In this document: piece after piece, positions 45,740 to 56,138 of the stretch | Numbering within the stretch: position 1 is the first letter of the stretch | Layout: every line of letters starts with the position of its first letter | Source: Elusimicrobiota bacterium | GTDB taxonomy: Bacteria; Elusimicrobiota; Elusimicrobia; Elusimicrobiales; Elusimicrobiaceae | DNA length: 64,000 nucleotides | Assembly: GCA_009778915.1 (NCBI GenBank) | Contig: WRFH01000007.1 | Span: forward strand, 1-64,000 | Direction of reading: 5' to 3' | Position numbers and translations under genes: made by a program | The notes under the pieces: model-generated | Databases searched by the model: none | The model's input: only the letters and a program-made list of their open reading frames with translations | Told to the model about the DNA's origin: nothing

Positions 45740-48700
45740 TTATTTTACGCTGAGCGTCATATTCGCGCTGTGCGCGGCGAACTCCGGCGCGTACATGCTT
45801 TGCAGTTGCGCGGCGCCTATTTTATAGGTTCCGGCCGTCGTCGGGCGTATTCTATATTTGAGAGTGTACGTCCCCTGCGGCAGCCAGTCTATGAAGAAGT
45901 TTGTCAGACTGTCGCGCGGTTCTTCGTAGCGGGACAATAAATCCCATTTCCAGCCGCTGAGCAGGTTTTCCGCCTCAAAACCTGCCGGGCGCTGGTCTTT
46001 GAGCATTACATATTCAAACTGCGAACTTGTGTTAATGGTCAGCTGTATTTCAATTTCGTCGCCGACATTCACGGTGTCTCCGTCGTTAAGCAGCTTGAGT
46101 TTATAGACGTCGCCGTCTTTGTAGCGGAGGAAATACTGGCGGCTTACGTTCATTAAACCTTTAGAAGATTCGTCCACTTTTCCGTCGGTGGAATACACGG
46201 CGCTCAGAGAGGCGAAATCTGTTGTTTTACCGGATTTAACCACTTGCGCGGAGATATCGTCCAGTGTAATCTTGCTGCCTTCTTTGACGTACTGCAGTGG
46301 TTTTTTAACAAAATCAAAAGGCTTGAAAGTCTGCTCGTCTTTAACGTCGCCCCACGTGATTTTATAGGTCGTATCCGTCGTAAACGCGCCGCGCGCTTTC
46401 ATGACGTCCAGCAGCGCGTAAATAGCGCTGGCGGCCGCTTTTGTGGACGTCCACGTATTTCCTTTGCGGTTAAACAGCATCCATTTAACCATATCGTCAA
46501 TGCGCTTGTCCGTCGGGCGCAGTTTGAGTAACGTACGCAGAGTTATGGCGTGTTTTTCAAGCGTGTCGCTGTACCAGAGCCATGATTTCGCCTCCGGCGT
46601 GAAATACGCGCCGGCGGTATCGTCGACGGTCATCATGTCGAGCACCGCGTCAAGATACCGGTCAGACTCCGTTTTATTGCCCAGGCGGTAGTAAACATTC
46701 GCGGCGTAAATTTTGCCTAACGGCGTCATAAACCGCTCATATTTCGCCGCGTATTCCAGCCAGTCCGCTGACTTTTTAAGCGCGTCCTGTGTTTCTTTCC
46801 ACTCCGGCGGGAAAGAGGTTAAAACATAGGCCGCGTAAAGGCTCATCACAATCTGGTTTTCGCCGGTGTTTTTTGTGTCTTTTATAATGTCGTCAACTTT
46901 GCCGGTGACGTAGCGCATAGCGCGTTTTGTCAAATCCTGCGGTACTTTTACGTCCTGCGACGCGGCCAGCGCGAAATTTTCCAGCAGGTAAAGCGTGACG
47001 TAAGTATCGCTTTTCCCGCCGCAGAACCAGCCGAAACCGCCGTCGGAATTTTGATAACAGGCCAGCCTGTCTTCAGTCTTTTTTGCCAGCTCGGCCACAT
47101 TTTTAGCGTCAAACATATCCACTATTTTTCCGTAATCAACTTTGCGGCCTTCGGCCTCGTAAAGCCACGGCGTTTCGGAAAGCACCGTCTGGCGGACGGG
47201 ATTGTCGGCCTGCCACGGCGGAGTTACGGTATCGCGTTTAGGCAGCTGCGCTACGGCTTTTCTCAACTCCGGATATTTCTGGTAAAAATTATTTACTATC
47301 GCGAGCGGCACATATTTGCTTGTCAGCGAAAATAAATTTTCAAACGGATATTCGACGAGCATGGGCAGGCTGTTAAAGACCGGCAGTATTAAATTAACGT
47401 CAATTTGCAGCTGCATTACGTCGAAAATACGCGTATCGTCCGGCTTTTTAAGGTCCGCGATTTCAATTATGTTGGAACCCTCTTTAAGCGCGGCGACTTT
47501 GCTGTCCACCAGACGCTCGCGGCTTGGCAGTATCGGTATTTCTTTAACTTCCCCGTCGGATAACTGGCCCGCGCGGGCTATGGCGGAAAGCGTTAAAACG
47601 CGCACGCCGCTTTCAACTTTCGCGTCCCATGTGACGGTCGCCTGAGATTTTGCTTTCACTAAAGTCGTCGCCCGCGTGTCGGTAAAATTTAAAATATCAT
47701 AAGCATTTTTACCGTTTTCTTTGACGAGGAGCACGGAGTTTACCGTCATATCGCGGTCCGTTTCATTGCTGATAATTCCTTTAAGCTGCGCTTTGTCGCC
47801 CTCGCGCAGAAAGCGCGGGATTTCAAGGCGTATCATAAGGTCTTTTTTCGTCGCAGTCTGGATGGTTGTCGTGCCGAGCAGCGCGTCTTTGGTGATGGCG
47901 TTTATTATTATGTTCCACGACGTTAAACGCTGCGGCATGGTTAAAGCTATGGAACCTTTGCCGTTAATCACTTTGGACTGCGGAGCAAAGTAGGCCGTTT
48001 CAGACATATCTGTCCTGGCTTCAACGCCGCCCGCGGCGGCTTCCATCTGCGCGCTTTTGTCCGCTGCTGCTTCTTGTTTCATGTCTCCGGCGGCGGACAG
48101 TGTAGCAGCTTTATTCATCATCGGCGCGGCCCCCGCGGCATTTGGCGCGCTTCGAGCTTCCATAACCATGTCGGCCTCGGCGTACATTGCGCTTCTTAAT
48201 CCTCTGCCCATACCAAAATATCTGTAAGAATATTCCGCGTTAAAATGCGGCAGCGGCGTTTCCGAGATATATTCATACTTTTCGGAATTTTTGAAAAACT
48301 GGTTGAAGTTAACGTCGAACAAAGAATTTTCTATGCCTTGGCCATAATAAGCGTACCGGCTTCCGCCGTAAAGCGCGCCGACGGCAAGCGGGTTAACCGG
48401 CTTGCTGTAATAATCAAGCGAGCGGTCATAAATTTTGACGGTGGCCTCGGCGTTGACTGGCCGTTTCTGGTAATCTGACACGCCGAAAGTCCAGTTGACT
48501 TTTTCACCGGGCAGAACGGAAGACGGCGTTTTTATTTCCACTGTAAGTTCTTTGTCATTATGAGGTATGCTGACGGAAGTCCCGCCTGAATACGTTTTAT
48601 AATCACTGACGCCGAACCAGTTTACTGTTACTCCGCCGCGGTGTTCCTGCGTCACGGGAAAAGAGTAAATACTCGCGCCGCTCTGTCGGATTGTGTCGTA

Positions 48701-51700
48701 GCGGAGCACAAAATTATCCTGTTTTACCTGAACGTATTTCGTGTTCTGAACGCCGCCGGCGCCCAGCAAAATCCGCGCGGTCTCACCGGGATAATAAGCG
48801 CTGTGCTCCGGGATAGTGACGGACGGCAGGTCAAGAGTTGAATTTTCCGACGCGAAAATCAGCAGCGCGTTTTGCTCCGCGTTGCCGTCTTTTTGTTTTA
48901 ATTTAATTCTGTAAACACCTTCTTTCTGCGCCGGTATCGTGACGGAGGACGGTTTATCTTTATTAAAATTAACGGTTACGCTGTAAACTTCCGTAATTTC
49001 TTTTGTCTTCTCAAAAGCCTGTTCGAGCGTGGCCGCGTCTTTGTCATAATTATTCTCTAGAGAATAAAGTTCAAACGCCGCGCTGCCAGACTGTGGTTTA
49101 TCGTTAATGTCAACCAGGGACACGTCTAATTTATAATACTTTCCCGCGTCGGCAAAGCCGGTTGGCAAATCAATTTTAAACATGACAGGATCTTTAGACG
49201 CGCGGTAAGTTTTCGTCGCGTTAATAGTGCGCCCGCCGGCGTCAAAAACGTTGACCTCGACGGTGTATGTGGACGGAAGATTATTTTTCTTGGCGTTGTC
49301 GCCGGATTCGGGTTTGAACGTAAAATTAAAATCTCCGTCTGAGTTTGCCGTGGTTTTGCCGTAAGCCACTTCCTCGCGGCCCGCGCCGCGGTACCAGCTC
49401 AGCCACCAGAAAAAATAGGGGATATAATCTTCCCTGTAAACTTTATATTCAACGTTAGCGTTAGCCGCGCCGCCGCCGTAATAATATTTCGCGCCGCCTT
49501 CAACTTTTACGTCGGCGCCATAATACCACGGCGCATCAGCGTCTTTCAAAGTTACTTCAAATTCCGGCCGTTTATATTCTTCAACCTTAAAATTGGCGTA
49601 GCCGCTGCCCGTCCAAACCGCGTCCTGCACCGTCGCGTTGATAGAGTAATTGCCCAGCAGTCCGGTTTGCGGCACGGTAAATTTATACGCGGCGGAACCG
49701 AAGTCGTTTAATTTTATAGTCTCCGCCGCCACCGTCTTATAATTTGCGTTGCGTATTTCAATTTTTACGGGATAAGGACGCGAATAAACTTTAAACCCGC
49801 GCGGCACGCGTTCCAGCGCGGTAACTTTAATTTGCGCGTCCTGACCAGGACGGTAAATGGCGCGGTCAGTTTCTACAAAAACAACTATCGGTTCCGGCGT
49901 TGAATATGAAAAGCTTGGCATATTTTGCAGATAAGCGTAAGAATTTTGATAAGCCGCCAGCGGCGAAATATTAATGTAATTAGAATTATTTCTTGAGACG
50001 GCGACATTATGGTTAAACGCCGCCGTGCCGTCTTTATCCGACGTAAAAGTTCTGTCCGGCTCTTCATAGACGTACGTATCTATTTTTGCGCCTTGGACCG
50101 GCGCGCCTGTTTTGGGGTTAAGTACAAAAAATTTAAAAATATCCGGCGTGAAAACGCGCGACGGATTTTGGAAATCATAAACATATTTATCCGGGTTATC
50201 TTCTATGCCCGTGCTTACGGCCAGCATAATATCCGTGATATTTAACGGCGCGCCATAGACGGGCGCGGCGTTAAAATCAAAGTTCTGGTTACTGCTCAGC
50301 AGCACGATATAAAGCCCGCGTTCGTTGACGGGCGGCACTTTTATTTCGGCTTTATCCAAAAAACCGTATTTTTTTTCATAAGTAAAATTCTGGCTGAAAG
50401 TCTGCACCGGCGTTTCGGCTAAAACTTTTTTCAAATTTTCGGCATTGGCGTTAAAGTAGGTTAAATATGAATACCCGTCGCGGCTGTATCTTTGCATGCT
50501 TTTAAGTTCTTCGACGGAAGTTTTGTAAACGCGGCCATAAAGAGTATTCACGTTCCGCAGCCGCGCGTTAAGCGTGATATTGTTAGGGTTCGGCGCGGCG
50601 GGGAAATTGCCGGAGTCCACAACTTCGCGGCGGATATCTTTTATAGTTCTGCCGCACAGTTTGGAAAAATTTTTGTCCGTCAGCCCTTCGCAATATAAGG
50701 CGGTATTTACCGCGCTTTCATATTCTGCCAGACTGTCGTTCAAAAGATTTGCGGCGTTGAAAGCGGCGAAACTTTTGGCGTACGGCGTAAAATCTTCTTC
50801 TTTAACAGATTCCTTAGCCGGTTCTTTTTTAAAGAGTTTTGAGAAGAAAGATTCTTTTACTTCCTCCTTTTTCTCTTCTTTTTTCACGCCGTAGCCGGCC
50901 CATTGTGAAAGCAGCGCGGCGGCTTGTTTTGCCGCCTCTTTTTTATCCGCCGGCTCAAACTGGTCTTCAAAATTAAACGGCAGCATAACGCGCTCCACGC
51001 GCCAAAAGCCGCGCGCGCTGTCTCTGCCAGTGCCTTTTAAATTGTATGCTTCTTCATAAATTTCGGCCAGTTTTTCCAAATTCCACACGCCGGCATTTTT
51101 GGAAGAATACACAGGCCCGGTAAAATCAAAAGCGCGGAAAAATATATCTTCTTTCTGCTGTTTTGATAAAATAAAATCGCGCAGTTTTACAACGGTAAAA
51201 TCAAACAGAGTCGGAATGCGTTCCGTGTCGGTGTCTTTGGTGTTAATCAGCAAAGTTTCGTCAGCAATCGGCGCGTTGATAAGTTTTTCGCGCAGCGCCC
51301 ACAGCGCGGTAAAATCGTCGTCCTGTTTTTGCTGCCACTGTTTTTTTGTCAGTTCTGCAGCGGCTTTCTCCTGCGTATTCGTTCCTTGCGAGGTAGATAC
51401 ATAAACAGGCACAGCCTCCGGCGTATCCATTTCGTCTGTATCCATAGCAAAGCCGTAGTTGTTGAGCATCTGCCCGGCGGTAAAAGTTCTGTAAAGCAAA
51501 AAGCGGGCGCGCCAGATACCGTCTTCGGGCAGAGCGTAAGAATAAATTTTTTGCGCGGCGGTATCATATTTAAAACCGGCAAGCATGCAGTCAACGGTTT
51601 TCAACTGCGCGGTATAAGCGGTATTTTTATCGTCGGAAGAAGAAAGTTGCTCATATGTTTTCTGCGCTTCGTTAAAGCGTCCGCTTTTAAAAGCCGCGTC

Positions 51701-51775
51701 CGCGTCCGCCAAAGTCTGGGCGGATAACGCGCCCGCGCATATTAAGGTAAAAAATAATATCAAGATTCTTTTCAT
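45740..51775 (-). CDS. Bacterial alpha-2-macroglobulin without thioester (YfaS-like)
   Basis: A 2011-residue secreted protein. It has a signal peptide (MKRILILFFTLICAGALSA), then a TPR-like pair (DADAAFKSGRFNEAQKTYEQ). Many macroglobulin beta domains follow, with TDRAIYRPGQDAQIK in the core. An Ala/Met-rich stretch at about residues 1195-1258 sits where a bait region is expected. MPQRLTSWNIIINAITKD marks the alpha-2-macroglobulin domain. At the thioester position the protein reads YPFENLFSLTSKYVP, with no CxEQ, so covalent trapping is not expected. SD GGGAGAG; a single-gene unit with its own terminator and no pbpC neighbour. Confidence 0.92.
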   Translation of the reverse strand: MKRILILFFTLICAGALSAQTLADADAAFKSGRFNEAQKTYEQLSSSDDKNTAYTAQLKTVDCMLAGFKYDTAAQKIYSYALPEDGIWRARFLLYRTFTAGQMLNNYGFAMDTDEMDTPEAVPVYVSTSQGTNTQEKAAAELTKKQWQQKQDDDFTALWALREKLINAPIADETLLINTKDTDTERIPTLFDFTVVKLRDFILSKQQKEDIFFRAFDFTGPVYSSKNAGVWNLEKLAEIYEEAYNLKGTGRDSARGFWRVERVMLPFNFEDQFEPADKKEAAKQAAALLSQWAGYGVKKEEKKEEVKESFFSKLFKKEPAKESVKEEDFTPYAKSFAAFNAANLLNDSLAEYESAVNTALYCEGLTDKNFSKLCGRTIKDIRREVVDSGNFPAAPNPNNITLNARLRNVNTLYGRVYKTSVEELKSMQRYSRDGYSYLTYFNANAENLKKVLAETPVQTFSQNFTYEKKYGFLDKAEIKVPPVNERGLYIVLLSSNQNFDFNAAPVYGAPLNITDIMLAVSTGIEDNPDKYVYDFQNPSRVFTPDIFKFFVLNPKTGAPVQGAKIDTYVYEEPDRTFTSDKDGTAAFNHNVAVSRNNSNYINISPLAAYQNSYAYLQNMPSFSYSTPEPIVVFVETDRAIYRPGQDAQIKVTALERVPRGFKVYSRPYPVKIEIRNANYKTVAAETIKLNDFGSAAYKFTVPQTGLLGNYSINATVQDAVWTGSGYANFKVEEYKRPEFEVTLKDADAPWYYGADVKVEGGAKYYYGGGAANANVEYKVYREDYIPYFFWWLSWYRGAGREEVAYGKTTANSDGDFNFTFKPESGDNAKKNNLPSTYTVEVNVFDAGGRTINATKTYRASKDPVMFKIDLPTGFADAGKYYKLDVSLVDINDKPQSGSAAFELYSLENNYDKDAATLEQAFEKTKEITEVYSVTVNFNKDKPSSVTIPAQKEGVYRIKLKQKDGNAEQNALLIFASENSTLDLPSVTIPEHSAYYPGETARILLGAGGVQNTKYVQVKQDNFVLRYDTIRQSGASIYSFPVTQEHRGGVTVNWFGVSDYKTYSGGTSVSIPHNDKELTVEIKTPSSVLPGEKVNWTFGVSDYQKRPVNAEATVKIYDRSLDYYSKPVNPLAVGALYGGSRYAYYGQGIENSLFDVNFNQFFKNSEKYEYISETPLPHFNAEYSYRYFGMGRGLRSAMYAEADMVMEARSAPNAAGAAPMMNKAATLSAAGDMKQEAAADKSAQMEAAAGGVEARTDMSETAYFAPQSKVINGKGSIALTMPQRLTSWNIIINAITKDALLGTTTIQTATKKDLMIRLEIPRFLREGDKAQLKGIISNETDRDMTVNSVLLVKENGKNAYDILNFTDTRATTLVKAKSQATVTWDAKVESGVRVLTLSAIARAGQLSDGEVKEIPILPSRERLVDSKVAALKEGSNIIEIADLKKPDDTRIFDVMQLQIDVNLILPVFNSLPMLVEYPFENLFSLTSKYVPLAIVNNFYQKYPELRKAVAQLPKRDTVTPPWQADNPVRQTVLSETPWLYEAEGRKVDYGKIVDMFDAKNVAELAKKTEDRLACYQNSDGGFGWFCGGKSDTYVTLYLLENFALAASQDVKVPQDLTKRAMRYVTGKVDDIIKDTKNTGENQIVMSLYAAYVLTSFPPEWKETQDALKKSADWLEYAAKYERFMTPLGKIYAANVYYRLGNKTESDRYLDAVLDMMTVDDTAGAYFTPEAKSWLWYSDTLEKHAITLRTLLKLRPTDKRIDDMVKWMLFNRKGNTWTSTKAAASAIYALLDVMKARGAFTTDTTYKITWGDVKDEQTFKPFDFVKKPLQYVKEGSKITLDDISAQVVKSGKTTDFASLSAVYSTDGKVDESSKGLMNVSRQYFLRYKDGDVYKLKLLNDGDTVNVGDEIEIQLTINTSSQFEYVMLKDQRPAGFEAENLLSGWKWDLLSRYEEPRDSLTNFFIDWLPQGTYTLKYRIRPTTAGTYKIGAAQLQSMYAPEFAAHSANMTLSVK

Positions 51776-51875: not shown

Positions 51876-53471
51876 TTACATCTCTTCCGGCGCGGAAACG
51901 CCTATCAGTTCAAGGCCTTTTTTAATCCTCTCTTTCGCGCGCTGGCAGATGAGCAGACGCGCGGCCGTCGTCTCCAAATCCGCTTCGTCAAGCACGCGGC
52001 AGTTATCATAAAAAGAGTGGAAAATACCTGCAAGCTCGACGAGGTATGTCGACAGATAATGGGGGGAAAAATCTCTGGCGCAGTTTTGCAGCACGGGCTT
52101 AAGCCAAAGCATTTTGGCAAGCAGCGCGCGTTCCTGCGGCGCGAATTTATAACCTATTAAATTCTGCGCCTGCGTCAGGCTTTTTTCCCGCGCGGTTCTT
52201 TCTATTTTCGCGGCGCGCGCGTGCACGTACTGCACGTAAAAAACCGGGTTTTCGGCAGTTTTCTTTTTTGCCAAATCAAGGTCAAAATTCATATGCGCGT
52301 CCGCGGTGCGGGAGGCGAAGAAAAAGCGCGCGGCGTCTTTTCCCACGTCTTCAATCAGCCCGCGCAGCGTGATAAATTTGCCGGAGCGTTTGGACATTTT
52401 TACTTTTTCGCCGCCTTCGATTAGGTGGACAAGCTGGTGGATGACGGGCACAAAACTGTCTTCTGTTTTGTCCAGCGCTTTTATGGCCGCTTTCATGCGC
52501 GGCACGTAACCGTGGTGGTCCGCGCCCAAAATGTCAACCAGCCGCGAATAGCCGCGGTCAAATTTATTTTTATGGTAAGCGATATCCGCCAGAAAATATG
52601 TAGGCCGCCCGTCGGTACGGACAAGCACGCGGTCTTTGTCGTCTGTATCTTTACTGGAGCCAAACCAGACGGCGCCATCTTTGTCATAAGCCAGATTTCT
52701 TGACTTCAAAAAATCCAGCGTTTTAGACGGCAAATCTTCTTTATAAAGTTCCGACTCTCGGAACCAGCGCGTGAAGTTTACGTTAAACGCCGCCATGTCT
52801 TCCTGATGAGTTTTGATTAAATATTCTATGGCGTAGGAAGAAAATTCTTTATCGGTCCAGCCGGCGCACTTGTCTTTAATTTCCGCCGCCATATCTATAA
52901 GATAATCGCCGTGATAACCGTTTTCCGGCGGTTCTTTGCCTTCGACGCGGGTTTTTAACGACACGCCCAAAAGTTCCGCCTGGTTGCCGGCGTCGTTGAC
53001 GTAATATTCGGCGTCGCAGTTTATGCCGACGGCGTTTAAAATCCTTACCAGACTGTCGCCGAGGCTTGCGCCGCGGCCGCTGGCCACGTGCAGCGGGCCC
53101 GTCGGGTTGGCCGAGACAAATTCTATAAGCGTGCGCTCTTTGCTTACGCCGGCGTTTCTGTCTTTAAGGCGGCGGTCAAGAGAGGCGTTTGAAATAAATC
53201 CGTCGTCCAGAATAATGTTTACAAAACCCGGCGGCGCGGCCTGCGCGTCAGCCACGCTGTTTACGCCCTGTATGATTTTCGCGGCGGTTTTTGCTATTTC
53301 CAGCGGATTTTTCTTTAAAATTTTTGCGGCGGACAGCGGCCATGAAATTGAAATATCCGCGCCGGTATGCGCCGGAGCAGACGAGATTTCCACCGGCGGC
53401 AACAGCGCGCCGGCAAAATTTTCATTGCTTTTTAATTTTAACTCTATGTCCGCTTTTAATTTGTCCAGCAT
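51876..53471 (-). CDS. argS: Arginyl-tRNA synthetase
   Basis: Class I synthetase of 531 residues from ATG 53471 (MLDKLKADIELKLK). An N-terminal Add-1-like domain is followed by the catalytic core with ANPTGPLHVASGRGASLGD, where HVAS stands in place of the usual HxGH, and KMSKRSGKFITL as KMSKS. DALR-type anticodon-binding helices form the C-terminus. An in-frame GTG at 53504 lies inside the adjacent palindrome and adds nothing family-like. A weak GGA lies 7 nt before the ATG. Last gene of the unit running from the WecA-like gene. Confidence 0.93.
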   Translation of the reverse strand: MLDKLKADIELKLKSNENFAGALLPPVEISSAPAHTGADISISWPLSAAKILKKNPLEIAKTAAKIIQGVNSVADAQAAPPGFVNIILDDGFISNASLDRRLKDRNAGVSKERTLIEFVSANPTGPLHVASGRGASLGDSLVRILNAVGINCDAEYYVNDAGNQAELLGVSLKTRVEGKEPPENGYHGDYLIDMAAEIKDKCAGWTDKEFSSYAIEYLIKTHQEDMAAFNVNFTRWFRESELYKEDLPSKTLDFLKSRNLAYDKDGAVWFGSSKDTDDKDRVLVRTDGRPTYFLADIAYHKNKFDRGYSRLVDILGADHHGYVPRMKAAIKALDKTEDSFVPVIHQLVHLIEGGEKVKMSKRSGKFITLRGLIEDVGKDAARFFFASRTADAHMNFDLDLAKKKTAENPVFYVQYVHARAAKIERTAREKSLTQAQNLIGYKFAPQERALLAKMLWLKPVLQNCARDFSPHYLSTYLVELAGIFHSFYDNCRVLDEADLETTAARLLICQRAKERIKKGLELIGVSAPEEM

Positions 53472-53474
53472 ATC

Positions 53475-53670
53475 AGGTTCCGTAATAAGGCTAACCCTTT
53501 GCACGTTTGCCGAAAAACCGGCAAACCCTTCGGGCTTTGTAATTTTTGGAAAATTTTAATTTTTTTGCTCCTTACATAGGCTCCGCCTGTCGGCTATGCT
53601 CGTCGCAAAGAAAATTAAAATTTTCGAAAAATTACTTTGCATACAAAGGGTTAGCCTTATTACGGAACCT
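53475..53670. repeat. 196-bp nested palindromic element between rsfS and argS
   Basis: Perfect 27-bp terminal inverted repeats lie at 53475-53501 and 53644-53670. Inside them a second pair (53539-53568 and 53605-53635, about 30 nt) matches with one mismatch and one bulge. The centre (53575-53598) can pair CATAG with CTATG. A side hairpin GTTTGCCG/CGGCAAAC lies at 53505-53526. The element fills the whole gap from the rsfS stop to 3 nt before the argS ATG. It encodes no protein. It could be a MITE-like mobile repeat or a structured mRNA region. Confidence 0.85.
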
Positions 53671-53671
53671 C

Positions 53672-54094
53672 TTATTTTTTCTTTTTTGCCGCCGGTTTTT
53701 TTGCCGTTTTCCTGACGGCGGTTTTCTTTTTAGGCGCGGCCTTTTTTACGGGCTTCTGCCATGAAATTATTTTGCCGAAACTAAAAATTTTCTCAAGAGC
53801 GTAAAACTCCCGCGCGTCGTTTGTCATTAAATGGAGCATGAAATTGCCGTAATCAGAGACGCGCCAGGAATTTGATTCCCCGCCGTCGCGGCTGGTTTTG
53901 AAAACGCCCAGCTGTTTAAGTTCGCGGCTGACGTTATCTTCCACCGCTTCCAGATGCGGGCGGGATGTTACGGTAGCAATAACGACGAAATCGCACAACG
54001 AAGACAGACCTTTAAGGTCAATGACTTTAACGTCTTCCGCCTTCTGTTCGTCGGCCAGCCGGGCGGCCAGTAAAACGGTTTCTTTCGTATTCAT
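53672..54094 (-). CDS. rsfS: Ribosomal silencing factor RsfS
   Basis: A 140-residue cytosolic protein that binds ribosomal protein uL14 and blocks subunit joining in starvation. The core (about residues 5-112) has KVIDLKGLSSLCDFVVIAT, WRVSDYGNFMLHLM and REFYALEKIF. The last 27 residues are a Lys/Ala-rich tail (KKAAPKKKTAVRKTAKK) not usual for the family. SD GAGGA. The nadD-yqeK-rsfS order resembles that in Bacillus. Confidence 0.93.
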   Translation of the reverse strand: MNTKETVLLAARLADEQKAEDVKVIDLKGLSSLCDFVVIATVTSRPHLEAVEDNVSRELKQLGVFKTSRDGGESNSWRVSDYGNFMLHLMTNDAREFYALEKIFSFGKIISWQKPVKKAAPKKKTAVRKTAKKPAAKKKK

Positions 54095-54123: not shown

Positions 54124-55038
54124 TTATTTAGGCATTTTGAAGTTTTTGCCTATTATGATTTGCGCGTCGCAGAAGGCGGACGGATTTTTTTCGCTGAACA
54201 GTTCGCTGTCCCGCAGTCCCAGGGCCAGGCTTAACTGTTTTAACTCTTTGCTGCGGCCGGTATTGTCTATAATTTTAGTATTGTCTTCCATTTTAGGATT
54301 GGTGTCATACTGAAGTACGTCGATATTTAACAATTTCTGCTCATTTAGTTTTCTTAAATACTGCGTAAGCTGCAGCGCGGCGCCTTTGCGGCCGGAGGCG
54401 TTGTAAATTTCAACTATAAGCGGGTGGTTTTCGACGGTTAGCGGAGAATTGCCCGCCTTATCGTCTGTCGGTTTCGCGCGGGAGTTTTTCGGCTGCGGCA
54501 TATCAACCGTGACGGTAAAATCCGTCATTTCCAGATTAAGAGAACCTAAAGTCAGAAGCACAAATTCATACGGCGCTATATTCGTCCTGTGCCGCGCGTA
54601 AGCTTTGGCGTAATCGTAAACGTATTTTACGCCCAGCAGCGGATTGTAGCGCCACGAAGACATAGTGGTTTTGAAATCAGACCAAAAAGCGTCAGACTCC
54701 GTTTCCGGCACGAAATATTTGAAGTGCCTCGGCGCTATGTTTTTTGTTCCCAGCAGTTTTAACGCTTTCTCCTGCGGCGTTAATTCCGGCGGAGGATTTT
54801 TAGTTTTTTTTGGCGGCGGCAGGTAGGCGTTTGTGATATTTATAAATTTTGTCCCGGGCGTATAAGTCATTATTAGAGCAGGTTCGCTCAAAAACACGAT
54901 ATTAAGCGGCTCCGCGGTTTTGCCTATGTATAAATGCGTTATATAATTTCTCTGCTGCACAATAAACGCGCCCGCCAAAACCAGCAGGAAAACAAATAAA
55001 ATCAGCGCGTTGATTATTTTTTTAAAAGATGATTCCAT
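54124..55038 (-). CDS. Membrane-anchored LytR C-terminal-domain protein
   Basis: A 304-residue protein. One N-terminal membrane helix (about residues 8-30) is followed by a mostly unassigned middle with a Pro/Lys-rich linker. The C-terminal 90 residues form a LytR_C domain (VEIYNASGRKGAALQLTQYL ... DAQIIIGKNF). It lacks the catalytic LCP domain, so it is not itself a ligase. I chose ATG 55038 (MESSFKKI) with AGGG 9 nt upstream; it overlaps the nadD fusion gene by 25 nt. Probably periplasmic and cell-wall associated. Confidence 0.8.
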   Translation of the reverse strand: MESSFKKIINALILFVFLLVLAGAFIVQQRNYITHLYIGKTAEPLNIVFLSEPALIMTYTPGTKFINITNAYLPPPKKTKNPPPELTPQEKALKLLGTKNIAPRHFKYFVPETESDAFWSDFKTTMSSWRYNPLLGVKYVYDYAKAYARHRTNIAPYEFVLLTLGSLNLEMTDFTVTVDMPQPKNSRAKPTDDKAGNSPLTVENHPLIVEIYNASGRKGAALQLTQYLRKLNEQKLLNIDVLQYDTNPKMEDNTKIIDNTGRSKELKQLSLALGLRDSELFSEKNPSAFCDAQIIIGKNFKMPK

Positions 55039-56138
55039 GTGATATTTCCCTGCGGGCAAAGCCATTTGCCTTCGTTAATAGTAAAAATAATTTTCATGCC
55101 GGCCGCGATAACGGCGGCGCGGTCCAAATCTTTTAAAGCAAGGTCGCGCAGCGTAAACGCGCCTTTGTATTTGCGGTCTTTGGAGGCTATGTCCGCGACG
55201 TATAAAACTTTGTCGTATTCCGTCATGCCGGCGGAACCGAGGGTGTGGCGTTCCACCGCGTTTAAAATAAGTTCGTCCGTTATGCCGAACTCCGTCCGCG
55301 CTATGTGCGACGACACGTAAGAATGCAGCAAATCCGGCGCATGGCGGCGGATTAAGTCATAAAACGGCGGTTTGATTTTATATTTTTTGGCGTATGCCAG
55401 AAGTCCTTTATCCGTCAGAGATTTGCCGGTGTCGTGTAAAAGCGCGGAAAGCGCGGCGCGTTCCGGGTAAACGTCATTAATAAGCGCCAGCTGCGCGGCC
55501 AGAGCGGAGACGGAACGCGTATGAAGATAACGGTTTTCCTTCAAATTTTCTTTAAGCCAGTCGTGCAGGTTAAGAAAATAGAGCCTGTATTTATTAATAA
55601 TTTCCGCCGACGGGCCGGCGTTTTTGCCCGCTTCGCCGTTGACCAGAATTTCAAGGCGGATTTGTGAAGAAGAAATTTTCGGCAGGCGCGCTTTCAGCGC
55701 GCGGTATTTGAATGCTAGCTTTTCTTTTGCAGCCAGCCCGGCGCGCTTCCCCGCGACGACGGTCGCATTTTTAAAAATAAAATCCGGCCGCTTCCACGAC
55801 GGAATTTCATTAAGAGCGTCCGTGCCGACAAGCATATAGAGTTTGGGCTTGTCATAAATCTTCTGCAAATACTCTATTATTTCAAAAGCGTAAGTTTTTT
55901 TCCGGCGTTTATATTCAAAATTGTCAAAAATAATACGGGCGGGAATATTTTTAAAAGCGTTTTTCGCCATTTCCATGCGCAGCGTAAAAGGCGTGTTGGA
56001 ACGTTCTTTAAAAGGGGAGTGATAGGCGGGAATTACGTGAACCGCGTCAGGCTTGATTTCCCGCGCGGCGGCGGCAAGAAGGGCCGCGTGGCCTTTATGC
56101 GCAGGATCAAAACTTCCGCCGTAAAACAGTATTTTCAC
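55014..56138 (-). CDS. nadD: NadD-YqeK fusion: nicotinate-nucleotide adenylyltransferase plus HD phosphohydrolase
   Basis: A 374-residue protein joining two enzymes usually encoded separately. Residues 1-185 are NadD (GGSFDPAHKGH nucleotide-binding motif, ISSSQIR), which makes deamido-NAD. Residues about 190-370 are a YqeK-type HD domain (HTRSVSALAAQLA, ALLHDTGKSL, RRHAPDLLHSYVSSHIA), a family that hydrolyses Ap4A. The start is GTG 56138 with CGGAG 7 nt upstream. Neighbouring rsfS completes the classical nadD-yqeK-rsfS set. Confidence 0.92.
   Translation of the reverse strand: MKILFYGGSFDPAHKGHAALLAAAAREIKPDAVHVIPAYHSPFKERSNTPFTLRMEMAKNAFKNIPARIIFDNFEYKRRKKTYAFEIIEYLQKIYDKPKLYMLVGTDALNEIPSWKRPDFIFKNATVVAGKRAGLAAKEKLAFKYRALKARLPKISSSQIRLEILVNGEAGKNAGPSAEIINKYRLYFLNLHDWLKENLKENRYLHTRSVSALAAQLALINDVYPERAALSALLHDTGKSLTDKGLLAYAKKYKIKPPFYDLIRRHAPDLLHSYVSSHIARTEFGITDELILNAVERHTLGSAGMTEYDKVLYVADIASKDRKYKGAFTLRDLALKDLDRAAVIAAGMKIIFTINEGKWLCPQGNITWNHLLKK

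Follow-up and report, generated by a model that had tools for sequence, protein, structure and literature searches.

The palindrome between rsfS and argS

The window (the whole stretch of 64,000 nucleotides that was analysed) carries rsfS (53672-54094; identified by TIGR00090/PF02410) and argS (identified by TIGR00456), both on the minus strand and flanking a palindrome of 196 bp. This palindrome starts 1 nt past the rsfS stop and ends 3 nt ahead of the argS ATG. Its outer arms are complementary at 27 of 27 positions, and an inner AT-rich pair (53539-53566 and 53608-53635; 28 nt, 93% complementary) encloses a small central hairpin. A preliminary description of the locus, which had reported perfect 27-bp arms abutting both coding regions, a second near-perfect pair inside them and a small central hairpin, was accurate on each of these points. 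With a mini hairpin and another small hairpin on one side and no counterpart on the other, the element forms a branched junction rather than a simple nest. The parts of this copy, named after the family anatomy given below, are as follows.

53475-53670, minus strand: whole element of 196 bp, very probably mobile, on the argS strand; missing at the orthologous site in two genomes of the same genus (G001 and G002), interior dispersed in the genome
53644-53670, minus strand: outer arm P1 (5' on the argS strand); pairs with the other arm at 27/27 positions
53475-53501, minus strand: outer arm P1 (3' on the argS strand); pairs with the other arm at 27/27 positions, sequence confined to the window copy
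53534-53639, minus strand: HP1, conserved AT-rich core hairpin and family signature; 101.4 bits by covariance model R1
53601-53604, minus strand: internal-loop motif GACG, 5' side; in 31 sequences C is conserved to 90% or more and both G and the A are invariant
53569-53574, minus strand: internal-loop motif TAAGGA, 3' side; in 31 sequences half of the six positions are invariant and the rest conserved to 90% or more
53526-53534, minus strand: mini hairpin CCCGAAGGG; predicted fold, similar hairpin in most copies
53505-53526, minus strand: HP3, small hairpin GTTTGCCG..CGGCAAAC; from predicted folds and sequences
53671-53674, minus strand: junction after rsfS, TAA stop plus G; filled TAAG/AGGTTCC versus empty TAA-TT-ATG in G001
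53469-53474, minus strand: junction before argS, GAT plus ATG start; from comparison of filled and empty sites

The palindrome is predicted to fold strongly, with a minimum free energy of -94.4 kcal/mol as RNA and -64.5 kcal/mol as DNA. Against dinucleotide shuffles the z-score was -12.2 for RNA and DNA alike, and none of 200 shuffles folded as well. A terminator scan of the region found no T run at the element ends, as the preliminary description had stated, and one weak terminator-like site inside the element was at chance level, as was everything returned by promoter and terminator scans around it. A Rho-independent terminator was rejected on these grounds, no stem-loop with a T run being found at either end.

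C-terminal to its domain (residues 10-104), RsfS has a tail rich in Lys and Ala, and in many relatives (L095-L105) the open frame runs on into a longer tail of this kind. Elsewhere in the window, positions 55014-56138 encode one 374-aa protein that combines a NadD-like nucleotidyltransferase with a YqeK-like HD domain. Downstream of argS, positions 45740-51775 encode a secreted-looking protein of 2011 aa with no NCBIfam match at E <= 0.001.

Copies, anatomy and distribution of the family

Searching the genome for the 27-bp arm had been proposed as a check for a mobile repeat. The arm itself has no second occurrence in its own genome (G000, a MAG of Elusimicrobium sp., Elusimicrobiaceae), whereas the interior of the element recurs, and a search by arm alone would thus have given a false negative. 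Matches and their flanks revealed full copies, each with near-perfect outer arms of its own whose sequence differs from copy to copy.

In an alignment of 31 core hairpins (HP1), runs of T and of A are invariant and the internal loop, with GACG facing TAAGGA, is conserved. The stems vary with compensation, double changes being seen at 15 of 26 predicted pairs. With covariance model R1, built on this alignment and giving rough E-values, we found 16 strong copies (>86 bits) in G000, a genome that is 66% complete.

In its full-length form of ~270-280 bp, the element comprises a 5' arm (~31 nt), HP1 (~100 nt), the mini hairpin, HP3 (up to ~100 nt) and a 3' arm. With a short HP3, the window copy and the copies nearest to it are 196-200 bp long, and a third size class lies at ~165 bp. 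In copies of ~275 bp the small HP3 is swapped for a hairpin of up to ~100 bp, which in some long copies bears an HP1-like loop. Across full copies the size is about 157-285 bp, and no transposase gene lies inside. Among the copies of genome G157, which is 100% complete, the HP3 tip occurs in both orientations (L306 versus L308, L317 versus L315), which suggests inversion at the hairpin. One locus of G001 (L294, G001:C60:6019-6195) has type-B arms and an HP3-type hairpin, with HP1 missing.

The sister genome G001 holds at least 24 copies. Model R1 gave 59 matches there (both strands counted) and 39 in G005, and several other Elusimicrobiaceae had up to 27. G002, from the same genus as G000, had none, nor did family f2 or most of genus g6. 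A pattern scan identified Elusimicrobium sp. Ehx436_bin12 and Elusimicrobiaceae bacterium SI047_bin93 as carriers. Across the phylum, 20 of 248 genomes had R1 matches. Eight of these belong to the distant family f12, where strong matches numbered up to 15 in one genome. An f12 copy (L306) and one from the genome of the window (L017) are 83% identical over the 275-bp unit, and since the match is confined to the unit, this comparison suggests that the element has spread horizontally, crossing between families. At the sensitivities used, no copies were found in viral contigs, plasmids or phages. The element accounts for many long intergenic palindromes in the carrier genomes of this little-studied phylum.

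Insertion sites and paired arms

Without the element, the rsfS-argS gap reads TAA-TT-ATG in G001 and TAA-CT-ATG in G002. As both sites are empty, the 196 bp including the arms were gained in the lineage of the window; the arms, missing from the empty sites, do not derive from the target, and we rejected that origin for them. A 2-nt gap was replaced by a palindrome of 200 nt.

We then compared the joined flanks of 23 other copies with G000, G001 and G002. For 11 of the 23, the flanks matched a sister genome in one piece, the empty sites lying in G001 for L003, L007, L008 and L015 and in G000 for L058, L062, L065, L067, L070, L072 and L073; those of L004 matched partially across the join. The cleanest pair, L067, reads GTCATACTTTATG when empty and GTCA-TA-[CGGTTG..CAACCT]-TA-CATTATG when filled, which is a duplication of TA. 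Of 37 copies, 19 had TA close to each end, versus 4.4 +/- 1.9 at control positions (maximum 10 in 200 draws). The flanks of the window copy (TAAGA/GG..CC/TGATATG) show no clean TA duplication, and some other copies are alike in this. From these junctions, duplication of a TA target is likely, and the element would insert between genes, most probably at TA.

Copies are mostly intergenic, their neighbours being unrelated genes and tRNAs. Between co-directional genes, ~72% lie in the direction of the genes (46 vs 18, p = 0.0006), a count that rests on simple ORF calls. L009 in G000 and L211 in G001 occupy the same intergenic region ~15 bp apart and look like separate insertions. Where L005 is inserted, the orthologous site of G001 has extra sequence (G001:C35:461-708) with a short type-E arm match, perhaps a remnant of the element.

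Within a copy, the two arms of the family (terminal inverted repeats of ~31 bp) are 95.4% complementary, versus 43.9% on average when a left arm is set against the right arm of another copy. In the arm subfamilies of the genus, HP1 is 83-89% identical and the arms only 53-67%, and 67-87% of the changed arm pairs within subfamilies are fully compensated. Between the window copy and L002, HP1 is the same at 105 of 106 positions (99%), but the arms are 52% identical: 13 of 27 pairs differ, and 12 of these are compensated. What is kept would seem to be that the arms pair, more than which sequence they have. Their pairing is maintained by selection on the folded form or by correction of one arm from the other. 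A core that is 99% identical within arms that are 52% identical, with nearly all changes compensated, raises the question of how the arms of a palindrome change together.

One answer would be that the element is recognised by its folded shape, as hairpin DNA, so that the arms need only pair and are remade on moving, for example by arm-to-arm copying. The changes between the window copy and L002 speak for this, as does a like trend in other pairs. The differing combinations of HP1 and arm types among copies point the same way (the long-loop HP1 is joined to type A arms in G000 and to type B arms in G001), as does the HP3 tip in both orientations in G157. In the distant family f12, however, the arms are 82% alike between copies, most of them starting TAG[AG]GTGTGT, like ordinary terminal repeats, and in the long copies L062 and L063 of G001 the arms and the core are about equally alike. 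Overall, we consider recognition by shape unlikely. We likewise hold it unlikely that the terminal arms of such an element have hardly any set sequence and, while it moves or soon afterwards, are rewritten so as to pair with each other, with the inner hairpin left unchanged. Homogenisation of the cores by gene conversion among old copies that keep their old arms would yield the same picture of arms and core and remains as an explanation of the variable arms; the comparison of the two rests on one genome per species.

Class of the element and alternative readings

We conclude with high confidence that the palindrome in the window belongs to a family of small mobile elements of Elusimicrobiota that are non-autonomous and resemble MITEs. 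The preliminary description had suggested that a MITE or palindromic repeat had inserted into an operon, and the dispersed copies, the empty sites in sister genomes and the TA-flanked ends support this. In keeping with MITEs, the element is shorter than ~300 bp, lacks a transposase gene, has terminal inverted repeats with TA at its ends and is present or absent between close relatives. Against this assignment stand the flanks of the window copy without a clean TA duplication, the search of G000 and G005 for four protein families, which gave no autonomous partner, and the terminal sequences within the genus, which are not conserved as in ordinary MITE families (copies share 53-67% within the arm subfamilies of the genus, 82% in the distant family).

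A transposase acting in trans would presumably move the element. The four families searched (Y1_Tnp, DDE_3, DDE_Tnp_1 and RVT_1) had no match in G000, which is 66% complete, or in G005. Y1_Tnp was found in none of the carriers G000, G005, G012, G020 and G010, several of them 92-99% complete, and DDE_3 in none of 15 Elusimicrobiaceae genomes; G001 has one Y1 gene, and G012, at 99% completeness, has reverse transcriptase genes only. Mobilisation by Y1, IS630-type DDE_3, DDE_Tnp_1 or reverse transcriptase was rejected for want of a consistent presence in carriers. Among the arm matches in G000 and G001, no long autonomous copy flanked by arms was seen, only the HP1-less derivative.

The preliminary description had also considered a structured RNA controlling argS, that is, a cis-acting leader or attenuator. 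The strong predicted fold, the placement in the rsfS-argS gap on the argS strand and the co-directional excess across the family would all fit such a role, and among the mismatched arm pairs of the genus G.U outnumbers A.C by 27 to 8 on the element strand (p = 0.002). That bias vanishes or reverses in other lineages: the counts are 12:8 for the genus under a stricter count, 4:0 in g4, 3:10 in g2 and 9:10 in the distant family. RNA-level selection, for which wobble counts were good in the genus and failed in other lineages, is therefore not claimed. Moreover, G001 and G002 have no element at rsfS-argS, and other copies adjoin unrelated genes and tRNAs. An Rfam search of 11 copies gave no family at gathering score on the element, with sub-threshold microRNA-type matches there and real tRNAs and RNase P nearby. 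Control of argS by such an RNA is thus very unlikely. The insertion itself probably ended any translational coupling between rsfS and argS, and it may expose the transcript to processing.

The family is apparently undescribed, and a literature search found no paper describing the element. A possible sequence likeness to Correia elements lies in TATAG ends. Among known systems, a review of small mobile bacterial sequences describes Correia/NEMIS, ERIC and RUP as ~100-200 bp long, with inverted repeats and TA at their ends, a duplicated target and transcripts whose folds are long stem-loops; RNase III is reported to act on NEMIS transcripts, and ERIC to affect mRNA stability (PMC2229807). Correia/NEMIS of Neisseria (~100-160 bp) shares with the element its inverted terminal repeats, terminal TA and AT-richness, and its transcripts fold into long stem-loops (PMC2229807), whereas in the element the terminal repeats differ strongly among copies of the genus, and it is by a conserved inner hairpin that the family is recognised. 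ERIC / RU-1 of enterobacteria is likewise a TA-ended palindrome, 127 bp long and co-transcribed with its neighbours (PMC2229807), but has 7 contiguous terminal pairs versus ~31 and lives in another phylum. RUP of Streptococcus pneumoniae is also a short non-autonomous unit with a TA target (PMC2229807), but it is ascribed to IS630-Spn1, and none of the 15 Elusimicrobiaceae genomes searched had a DDE_3 match. The ~150-bp bcr1 repeat of the Bacillus cereus group has mobile-element traits and a shared predicted fold (PMC2267715) but differs in architecture and host. Because it shares most of their defining features, we class the element as a new family of the Correia/ERIC/RUP kind, one whose arms are unusually variable.

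An element of the REP/RAYT type, with a Y1 tyrosine transposase as its mover, would also be palindromic, intergenic and multicopy, and a CGTC tag reported for one REP class (PMC3733652) is complementary to the loop motif GACG. In the element, however, this motif is internal, the size and terminal TA do not fit (REPs measure 20-40 bp; PMC3733652), and Y1_Tnp is missing from most carriers, which makes this origin highly improbable.

Perfect palindromes are a known cause of assembly errors. The palindrome is nonetheless almost certainly not an assembly artefact of inverted reads, nor is it the single copy that the preliminary description had allowed for, given the many copies with distinct arms in independent MAGs, their intact flanks and the matching empty sites. 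Contigs end inside or just beside copies L068, L069, L307, L321 and L323, so the element probably breaks MAG assemblies and contributes to their fragmentation.
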